Shown in pieces: positions 4,155 to 36,742 of a stretch of DNA of 40,676 nt. This stretch comes from Thiotrichaceae bacterium (GTDB taxonomy: Bacteria; Pseudomonadota; Gammaproteobacteria; Thiotrichales; Thiotrichaceae): NCBI GenBank assembly GCA_026988095.1, contig JALSLX010000121.1:1-40676 (forward strand). Reading direction: 5' to 3'. The notes below the pieces were generated by a model. That model had not been told where the DNA came from. It saw only the letters and a program-made list of their open reading frames with translations, and did not search any database. Position 1 is the first letter of the stretch. Each line of letters opens with the position of its first letter. The position numbers and the translations under genes are program-made.

Positions 4155-4244
4155 CCACCCCCCTTGTTTTTCGATGTTTTGTGTAAGTTTTTAGAGTGTA
4201 AAAGGCCAGAAAGTCACACAAAACGTCGAAAAAGAGGGGGGTGG
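4155..4244. repeat. Dispersed paired inverted repeat, copy A
   Basis: Two arms of about 30 bp (4155-4184 and 4217-4244) are near-perfect reverse complements separated by a 32-bp loop. Read on the plus strand, the right arm is ACACAAAACGTCGAAAAA followed by GAGGGGGGTGG. The C-rich end lies outside and the ACAAA end inside. It fills the gap between the convergent genes dnaQ and smpB. No U-tract follows the stem, so a simple intrinsic terminator is not a full explanation. The same half-unit recurs at five other places in the window. Confidence 0.85.
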
Positions 4245-8319: not shown

Positions 8320-8388
8320 CCACCACCTCCTTTTTTCGCTGTTTTGTATGTTGATAACAATGTATAGAATTGCGAAAGAGAAGAAAGG
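8320..8388. repeat. Dispersed inverted repeat, copy B (decayed)
   Basis: The left arm, CCACCACCTCC TTTTTTCGCTGTTTTGT (8320-8347), matches the half-unit with a few changes. The right arm (about 8364-8388, GAATTGCGAAAGAGAAGAAAGG) keeps only part of the complementarity. It lies between the convergent genes hemE and mrcA, and looks like an older copy of the family. Confidence 0.6.
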
Positions 8389-19437: not shown

Positions 19438-19505
19438 CCCACCCCCCCTCTTTTTCGATGATTTGTATGAGAAAAGATTAAAATAAACGTAAAAAGGTGA
19501 AGGTT
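19438..19505. repeat. Dispersed inverted repeat, copy C (one arm decayed)
   Basis: The left arm (19438-19466), a C-run with CCCACC then TCTTTTTCGATGATTTGT, is a near-perfect half-unit. The right arm (about 19482-19505, AATAAACGTAAAAAGGTGAAGG) is degenerate. The polarity is C-rich end outside. It lies between the convergent genes dgt-like and the phosphatase-like gene. Confidence 0.7.
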
Positions 19506-24571: not shown

Positions 24572-24651
24572 ACAAATCATCGAAAAAAGGGGGGGTGGGC
24601 TTAAAAATAGCTTGTTTTGATACCCGCCTCCCCCTTTTTTCGATGATTTGT
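24572..24651. repeat. Dispersed inverted repeat, copy D (opposite arm polarity)
   Basis: The left arm is ACAAATCATCGAAAAA plus a G7 run and TGGG (24572-24599). The right arm (24623-24651) is its near-perfect reverse complement, and the spacer is 23 bp. Here the ACAAA end is outside and the G/C-rich end inside, the reverse of copies A, C and E. It begins seven bases after the rsmI stop, at the convergent junction with fadE. Confidence 0.85.
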
Positions 24652-27236: not shown

Positions 27237-27273
27237 TGGTTCGTACCTATTTTGTTCTGAAGTGTTGTAATGA

Positions 27274-27307
27274 TTAAAAATAGAGCGAGCGTTCGCTTTT
27301 ATTTTAA
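27274..27307. promoter_or_regulatory. Palindromic operator candidate between fadE and tetR
   Basis: The 14-bp core AGCGAGCGTTCGCT (27284-27297) is an inverted repeat with one asymmetric pair per half. A/T-rich flanks extend it to 34 bp with 13 of 17 positions paired. It overlaps the -10 box of the fadE promoter and its start region. The site is typical in size and placement for a TetR-family dimer, and the divergent regulator is the natural candidate ligand-responsive repressor. Binding is inferred. Confidence 0.6.
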
Positions 27308-27329
27308 GTCAGGTGTAGAATAGAATCAA
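27301..27329 (-). promoter_or_regulatory. fadE promoter
   Basis: On the minus strand, TTGATT (complement of 27324-27329) and TAAAAT (complement of 27301-27306) are exactly 17 bp apart. Transcription would start near 27294, about 58 bp before the fadE ATG and inside the operator palindrome. A weaker opposing promoter for the regulator could be TTCGCT (27293-27298) with TAGAAT (27316-27321), also 17 bp apart and also overlapping the palindrome. Confidence 0.55.
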
Positions 27330-27355
27330 GGGAATATTTAAATGAGGTCTTATTA

Positions 27356-28117
27356 GTGTCCGTTACTGCTCGACAACACCTTCAACCAAGCAATGCGTTA
27401 TATGTTGATTTTTATAATGATTTTACCTATCAAGGCGATGCGCTTTACGGGTTAATATTTGAAAGAAATAAAGACAAGATAAAGGTAAGCAAAGAAAAGT
27501 TTGCGATTAAAAATCTAAAAAAGATATTTGATGCAACCTTTCAGCTAAGTACTCAGCTGGGTTTTCAAGCAATGTCATTGCGTGATCTTTCAAAAGCAAC
27601 AGGCTTGAGCATGGGAGGGCTGTATTCCAGTATCTCTAATAAAGAAGCGATTGCCGTTATCGTTAAAGATGTTGTGTCGGTAGTTTGCGCCGAAATAGTA
27701 GAAGAATCTCGCGAACAGCAAGACCCCAAATTAGCATTGCAAACGTTAGTTCGCGGATATTTATACGCATCAACCATACTGCAACCGTGGTTTTACTTTT
27801 TATTCTTCGAAACCAAAAGCCTGCCATCAGCAGATCAAGAAGGCTCCTTAAAAATAGAGCTCATCCAAGTAAAAGAGCTAGAAGCACTCATCGGGCAATT
27901 AACGCCAGGCTCCGATTCATGCCACAAAGCAGAATTTGTCGCAACTATGGCACTATCCCTAATCCAAGAACGCTACCTAAAGCATTGGAAATATAAAAAC
28001 CCATCAGAAAGCGTGGATAAATACGCCGATAAATGCCTACAACTGATCTACCGCGCCATTTGTTTGGATGAAGTGCAGCCTTGCACTCAGATTTATGCTT
28101 CTGATGGTGAAAACTAG
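27356..28117 (+). CDS. TetR/AcrR-family transcriptional regulator
   Basis: Predicted DNA-binding repressor, divergent from fadE. A GTG start at 27356 is chosen because GAGG stands eight bases upstream. The helix-turn-helix domain is at about residues 52-98: KKIFDATFQLSTQLGFQAMS, LRDLSKATGLSMGGLYSSIS and NKEAIAVIV. About 50 residues precede it, longer than usual. The C-terminal ligand domain (about 100-253) is all-helical and not assignable to a named subfamily. The genomic context suggests control of fadE in response to acyl-CoA, in the manner of PsrA- or FadR-type TetR regulators, but the sequence does not prove this. Confidence 0.88.
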   Translation: MSVTARQHLQPSNALYVDFYNDFTYQGDALYGLIFERNKDKIKVSKEKFAIKNLKKIFDATFQLSTQLGFQAMSLRDLSKATGLSMGGLYSSISNKEAIAVIVKDVVSVVCAEIVEESREQQDPKLALQTLVRGYLYASTILQPWFYFLFFETKSLPSADQEGSLKIELIQVKELEALIGQLTPGSDSCHKAEFVATMALSLIQERYLKHWKYKNPSESVDKYADKCLQLIYRAICLDEVQPCTQIYASDGEN

Positions 28118-28130
28118 CTAAATTATTATG

Positions 28131-28201
28131 CCATCCCCCTCTTTTTTCGATGTTTTGTACGTTATTTTTTAATACAAATCGTCGAAAATCAGGGGGGGTG
28201 G
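28131..28201. repeat. Dispersed inverted repeat, copy E
   Basis: The left arm (28131-28159, CCATCCCCCTC then TTTTTTCGATGTTTTGTA) and the right arm (28173-28201, TACAAATCGTCGAAAATC then a G7 run and TGG) are near-complementary with a 13-bp loop. The polarity is as in copy A, with the C/G-rich end outside. It lies 14 bp after the tetR stop and about 100 bp before rnpB, so it is not at a convergent junction. Confidence 0.85.
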
Positions 28202-36714: not shown

Positions 36715-36742
36715 ACAAATCATCGAAAAAGAGGGGGGGTGG
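36715..36742. repeat. Dispersed repeat, solitary half-unit (copy F)
   Basis: One arm only: ACAAATCATCGAAAAA, then GA, a G7 run and TGG, 17 bp after the mraY stop. No complementary arm is found in the rest of the mraY-murD gap. The remainder (36743-36852) is T-rich and could hold a weak internal promoter (TTGGGA 36803-36808, TATATT 36824-36829, 15-bp spacing), which is not convincing. Confidence 0.8.

Follow-up and report, generated by a model that had tools for sequence, protein, structure and literature searches.

Known regulators of fatty acid degradation

The beta-oxidation pathway of Escherichia coli is controlled by FadR, a regulator of the GntR family. The regulator described here belongs to a different protein family. 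It is a TetR-type protein encoded in the 2.26-Mb assembly (167 contigs) of a Thiotrichaceae bacterium, a genome that is 92.5% complete and in which the gamma-type FadR (TIGR02812, fadR_gamma) was not found. Its gene is divergent from fadE within the 40,676-nucleotide stretch of DNA that was analysed, hereafter the window. In this arrangement it is reminiscent of TfmR (XAC3052) of Xanthomonas citri, a TetR regulator that is encoded divergently from a fadE operon in a genome without FadR, binds and represses the promoter of that operon, and is released by long-chain fatty acids (PMC6637906). The TfmR target operon is mhpC-fadE and, in the available part of that account, fadB and fadA are unaffected (PMC6637906). 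At the present locus, by contrast, fadE directly borders the gap with no mhpC in between, and in some species fadB is predicted to be a target.

A second point of reference is PsrA of Pseudomonas, a TetR protein that represses its own gene as well as those of beta-oxidation, uses a palindromic operator, C/GAAAC-N2-4-GTTTG/C, and has a fatty-acid ligand (PMC13104628, PMC10304680). The logic proposed here is the same, i.e. control of beta-oxidation and self-repression from a palindrome, but the operator differs. The PsrA box in its N4 form, GAAACN4GTTTC, has no match at up to two mismatches between the fadE and tetR starts (27237-27355), which bears out the unlikeness to the PsrA site asserted in an earlier, sequence-only reading of this DNA. 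FadP is a TetR regulator that replaces FadR and PsrA at the fad genes of one lineage and is described, in the available text, as unique to Betaproteobacteria (PMC5343134); lineage-specific TetR control of fad genes is what the two systems would have in common. The motifs of PA3973 of P. aeruginosa (SAAGRNMTGAACG; PMC9736018) and of BkaR (core GTTA(N)T(N4)A(N)TAAC; PMC3920632), as given in the accessible parts of the respective reports, differ from the operator here and both candidates were set aside.

The best Foldseek match of the regulator is PfmR (TTHB023) of Thermus thermophilus, at 22% identity. PfmR has fatty-acid genes among its targets, and its site TACCGACCGNTNGGTN, as reported in the available text (PMC7022988), shares CGAnCGnT with the operator here. 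The two proteins are distant in sequence (phmmer E 4.4e-6 over residues 56-167), and the aligned part of the regulator starts at residue 50, past a conserved extension. Judged by analogy, the regulator would work like TfmR and PsrA, but it is not PsrA. We put a probability of about 85% on the reading, drawn from sequence comparison, that the palindrome between the two genes is the operator of a ligand-released, autoregulated, divergently encoded TetR repressor of beta-oxidation, with operator copies at other fad genes.

A palindrome over the fadE promoter

The fadE and tetR starts are separated by 119 bp, and the features of the region are collected in Table 1. The palindrome in this gap, TTAAAAATAGAGCGAGCGTTCGCTTTTATTTTAA, pairs at six of the seven positions of its core. 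When the gap was shuffled with its dinucleotides preserved, at least 13 pairs were obtained in 7 of 5000 shuffles, confirming the 34-bp imperfect palindrome that the sequence-only reading had singled out; the whole window holds three centres with 13 or more pairs. The core pattern AGCGAnCGnTCGCT at up to one mismatch occurs once in the window, where 0.07 occurrences are expected, and 6 of 100 shuffles have one.

Table 1. Features of the fadE-tetR region and copies of the repeat element, in window coordinates
Feature	Position	Strand	Basis
fadE, acyl-CoA dehydrogenase, 821 aa	24771..27236	-	PRK09463 1038.5 bits (cut-off 600); PF09317 305.1 bits
TetR-family regulator, 253 aa, GTG start, TetR_N at residues 57-99	27356..28117	+	
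Regulator codons 16-45, conserved, partly helical extension preceding the DNA-binding domain	27401..27490	+	8 orthologues and model
Imperfect palindrome, 34 bp, proposed operator with A/T-rich arms	27274..27307	.	13/17 pairs
Operator core AGCGAGCGTTCGCT, 14-bp register	27284..27297	.	10/12 or better in 16/16 orthologous gaps
Compact register GAGCGAGCGTTC, fits GAGCGnnCGCTC at 9/10, centre 2 bp from core register	27283..27294	.	
fadE promoter -35, TTGATT	27324..27329	-	promoter scan; TTGACA here in 12/17 gaps
fadE promoter -10, TAAAAT, within palindrome arm	27301..27306	-	promoter scan and gap comparison
Possible tetR -10, TAGAAT; its -35 position on operator core	27316..27321	+	gap comparison, absent from consensus scan
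Palindromic repeat	4156-4244, 8321-8341, 19440-19460, 24578-24645, 28132-28200, 36721-36741		

A consensus scan places a fadE promoter, TTGATT-17-TAAAAT, on the minus strand and confirms the overlap claimed earlier, as its -10 lies inside a palindrome arm. Promoter-like sites of this kind occur 1.9 times on average in shuffles of the scanned region, so the window promoter proves nothing alone and the weight comes from the conserved -35 of the relatives. Across 17 gaps, the window included, the fadE -35 is TTGACA in 12 and the -10 ends 4-9 bp from the core, compared with TTGATT and a -10 ending 3 bp from the core in the window. With the -10 in this position the fadE start, some seven bases further on, would fall in the core. 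The weaker opposing promoter that had been proposed for tetR fared less well: the consensus scan did not detect it, and what stands is a visible TAGAAT -10 with a poor -35 over the operator. Seven loci of Ca. Thiodiazotropha and Ctena symbionts carry an extended -10, TGCTACAAT or TGCTAGAAT, at the tetR -10 place.

The window also contains copies of a REP- or MITE-like element, a palindromic repeat whose arms read CRTCGAAAAnnAGGGGGGGTG and which has nine matches here at up to three mismatches (0.06 expected) and 127 + 149 matches genome-wide at up to two mismatches (none for the reversed control). One copy follows tetR and another precedes the fadB operator (L002:1315-1408).

Conservation of the proposed operator

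When named genomes were scanned for the regulator, 19 loci were obtained, from Cocleimonas (C. flava DSM 24830 and uncultured Cocleimonas), Thiotrichaceae MAGs, Ca. Thiodiazotropha, Ctena orbiculata symbionts, other Gammaproteobacteria and two Deltaproteobacteria MAGs. The tetR-fadE gap lies on the contig in 16 of them. In each of these fadE is divergent and a site matches AGCGAnCGnTCGCT at 10/12 or better (four at 12/12, ten at 11/12 and two at 10/12), with regulators that are 74% to 46% identical. The core motif of the window is thus conserved in every orthologous gap available. One locus (L023) was left out of this count because its contig ends before the gap, and another (L034), on a contig that begins just before tetR, has no site (best match 9/12). 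In a more distant Deltaproteobacteria MAG (L033, regulator 35% identity) tetR belongs to an operon that comprises genes for a histidine phosphatase, an acyl-CoA dehydrogenase, the regulator and an APH-type phosphotransferase. This operon diverges from an ETF gene, and the divergent promoter between the two carries an 11/12 site.

In a class-wide draw of 369 genomes, 12 encode a homologue of the regulator at E 1e-30 or better, comprising the own genome, two repeats of known loci (G383 = L027, G101 = L032) and nine new loci. Six of these nine (L128-L132, L134) have a site of at least 10/12 just upstream. The remaining three (L133, L135, L136) have no upstream site within 1.5 kb, the 10/12 match of L136 sitting inside the tetR frame. 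The L129, L130 and L131 homologues (39-40% identity) have an 11/12 site just before tetR and an acyl-CoA dehydrogenase gene downstream on the same strand, Pfam-named for L129 only, and they diverge from an unrelated-looking membrane protein gene.

Putative operator copies at other fad genes

In the 2.26-Mb genome itself, AGCGAnCGnTCGCT at up to one mismatch is found in two places, compared with three for a reversed-pattern control, so that the number of matches is not above chance and the evidence lies in position: the sole match besides the operator begins 84 bp ahead of the ATG of fadB. The 17 tetR-fadE operators, and no other sites, were used to train a sequence-only profile, which was run on 57 relatives under stricter filters, with 126 candidates scored per genome. 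This set overlaps with the loci above and is not independent of them (L016-L020, L023 and L024 are G007, G008, G003, G004, G011, G020 and G031). Five of these seven are members of the same genus as the window, which places the window in the genus of C. flava. At E <=0.01 the profile finds 12 distinct places outside the training gaps, nine of them at fatty-acid genes, counting G009, whose contig ends before the gene, and three elsewhere. Profile sites precede fadB in G000, G004, G011 and G009 (gene past the contig end), and they precede an operon for a DUF4442 thioesterase, a nitronate monooxygenase and an AMP-binding acyl-CoA synthetase in G003, G004, G007, G008, G009 and G011. Others stand before a second fadE in G011 (start 66% identical to the G005 paralogue), the fadE of G020 and an acyl-CoA dehydrogenase gene of G004. 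Gene names are from Pfam. The distance to these other fad genes is 50-160 bp. The search for the palindrome upstream of further fad genes, which the sequence-only reading had put forward as a check, therefore succeeded for fadB in the own genome and for several fad genes in relatives. A search of the own genome did not find the thioesterase operon, which makes it a predicted target in relatives only.

Thirty of the profile's places were inspected, 13 at fatty-acid genes and 17 not. Ten of the latter look by eye like T-run terminator hairpins, five are inside an open frame, and two stand before a carbon-nitrogen hydrolase gene (L078) and a weakly porin-like gene (L093). Motif scans can be misled by six loci (L074, L080, L082, L084, L087, L091): here a terminator-like hairpin next to a response-regulator gene (of the LuxR type in L084) is similar to the operator (AGCGAGC...GCTCGCTTTTTT) and obtains a weak profile score.

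The regulon seems to vary in extent. In C. flava DSM 24830 the set of predicted targets consists of fadE, tetR and the thioesterase operon and does not include fadB. Among 17 further genomes searched at E <=0.05, the tetR-fadE place is the sole match in the seven of Ca. Thiodiazotropha and Ctena symbionts. In G409 a thiolase gene is preceded, at a distance of 143 bp, by a second site that is perfect. The second match of G290 looks like a terminator; G391 and G177 have no profile match at this threshold, though an 11/12 site precedes their tetR. The description of the switch as a local one thus fits the seven symbiont genomes but not the Cocleimonas genus, where the motif also stands before fadB and the fatty-acid activation operon.

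The regulator and its candidate ligand

Membership of the TetR family is indicated by PF00440 (E 3.3e-5, 24 bits at a cut-off of 24) and by the structural match to PfmR. The structural model (mean pLDDT 86.6) has helices at residues 16-22 and 27-37 of the N-terminal extension, and F23, Y25, L30, Y31, F35 and R37 are invariant in eight orthologues. The best Foldseek matches include, besides PfmR, BkaR, the FadR of T. thermophilus with lauroyl-CoA, AibR with isovaleryl-CoA and the FadR of B. subtilis with stearoyl-CoA. VIA-align of the model gave PfmR a Z of 18.1 (188 residues, rmsd 3.2), tied with 3him at 18.8, and the top PDB match by sequence is Mce3R (E 1.2e-8). This structural neighbourhood of the model suggests an acyl-CoA ligand.

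The same neighbours, AibR, BkaR and KstR2 among them, would be compatible with a regulator whose signal is not a straight-chain acyl-CoA but, e.g., a branched or short one, with control of fatty acid degradation as a secondary effect or even with activation of its targets. Homologues elsewhere sit with acyl-CoA dehydrogenases and APH-type phosphotransferases, which lends this idea some substance. We nevertheless consider it unlikely, since a site over the fadE -10 and start is in the position of a repressor, and since fadE, fadB and an AMP-binding, acyl-CoA-synthetase-like gene as targets point to fatty acids at large.

Co-occurrence of the proposed operator and the regulator

The reading of the palindrome as the operator of its neighbour can be compared with one in which it belongs to a TetR protein encoded elsewhere, akin to PsrA, FadP or FabR, and tetR is merely adjacent. 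CGnnCG-like cores are read by many TetR regulators and, according to the accessible part of the T. thermophilus study, TTHB023 and TTHA0167 can share one place (PMC7022988). The distribution of sites makes such an arrangement improbable to a high degree. The motif tracks this tetR across lineages and is also found beside the distant homologues of L033 and L129-L131, the PsrA box in its N4 form is absent from the gap, and none of nine genomes with fadB but without this tetR has the motif. Upstream of fadB an 11/12 site is present in three of five genomes with the regulator and in none of these nine (best 8/12), a difference with a one-sided Fisher value of 0.027 when relatedness is ignored and with 14 of 18 matches examined; G003 and G008, both with the regulator, have no site before fadB. 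Upstream of the thioesterase gene, a site of at least 10/12 is present in four of six genomes with the regulator and in none of eight without (best 9/12; one-sided Fisher 0.015, relatedness again ignored, 15 of 21 matches examined, with G009 at 9/12 counted apart). The two genomes with the regulator that fall below the threshold are G011 (9/12) and G031 (8/12). Of the 49 genomes that lack a close tetR, G009 alone (80% complete, FadE also not found) reaches E 0.01 with the profile; the best value in the remaining 48 is 0.028.

The FadE encoded next to tetR forms a clade of its own, with at least 62% identity in exactly the eight genomes of the 57 that have the regulator; FadE in the others is at 50% or less, or has no match. 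Five genomes (G003, G004, G007, G008, G011) encode a second FadE of about 45% identity besides the tetR-linked one, and several relatives carry only this second kind. G001 and G005 have a fadB that is 87-88% identical to that of the own genome, and they are without a close tetR, a tetR-linked FadE or a fadB operator.

A bidirectional intrinsic terminator, or a palindrome that arose by chance, can be dismissed as an explanation of the hairpin. A terminator scan does report it in both orientations (2 found, 0.6 expected), and the profile gives weak scores to real terminators of relatives. However, the hairpin is placed between two genes that start divergently, a place at which no transcript ends; its bases and not pairing alone are conserved in fadE gaps with regulators down to 46% identity, and it recurs before other fad genes.

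Two registers in the proposed operator

The site contains two overlapping palindromes with centres 2 bp apart. Over 37 collected sites, of which those gathered via the profile are biased towards it, the register AGCGAnCGnTCGCT and the compact register GAGCGnnCGCTC are about equal in symmetrised information (15.65 versus 15.54 bits). All ten sites collected from G004, G009 and G011 pair best at the compact centre, compared with three of 14 other sites, of which seven favour the 14-bp register and four tie. The recognition helix, SMGGLYSSI, is identical in G004, G011 and the window. The two registers may reflect either two binding modes or drift. A tentative and rather doubtful extension of this picture is that an undescribed clade of regulators with a conserved helical N-terminal extension reads a composite operator of both patterns flanked by A/T tracts, and that in one subgroup of Cocleimonas (G004, G009, G011) the operators of a whole regulon have shifted jointly to the compact register. 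If true, these genomes would document how operator geometry changed in nature while the recognition helix stayed nearly the same.

A proposed switch for beta-oxidation

The overall reading of the locus as a repressor that controls fadE and itself is supported by the conservation of the site and by the recurrence of the motif at other fad genes. From the sequence comparisons we infer binding, repression, autoregulation and a ligand, as follows. In the absence of ligand, a dimer of the regulator would sit on the operator and cover the fadE -10 and start as well as the -35 position of tetR, so that beta-oxidation and the regulator's own gene would both be repressed. The same regulator would occupy the operator copies before fadB, the operon for the DUF4442 thioesterase, nitronate monooxygenase and acyl-CoA synthetase, and further acyl-CoA dehydrogenase genes, with a predicted target set that differs between species. 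Release would probably be brought about by an acyl-CoA or a long-chain fatty acid.

A literature search, with most subscription journals outside its coverage, found no description of this regulator or operator, a weak negative. The switch is of an ordinary kind and convincingly real, has its own operator and a species-dependent regulon, and is apparently undescribed. For the genus Cocleimonas and for clam symbionts (Ca. Thiodiazotropha) it provides a regulator, an operator and a list of predicted targets in fatty acid degradation, and it would represent one more lineage-specific substitute for FadR and PsrA whose regulon varies among relatives.
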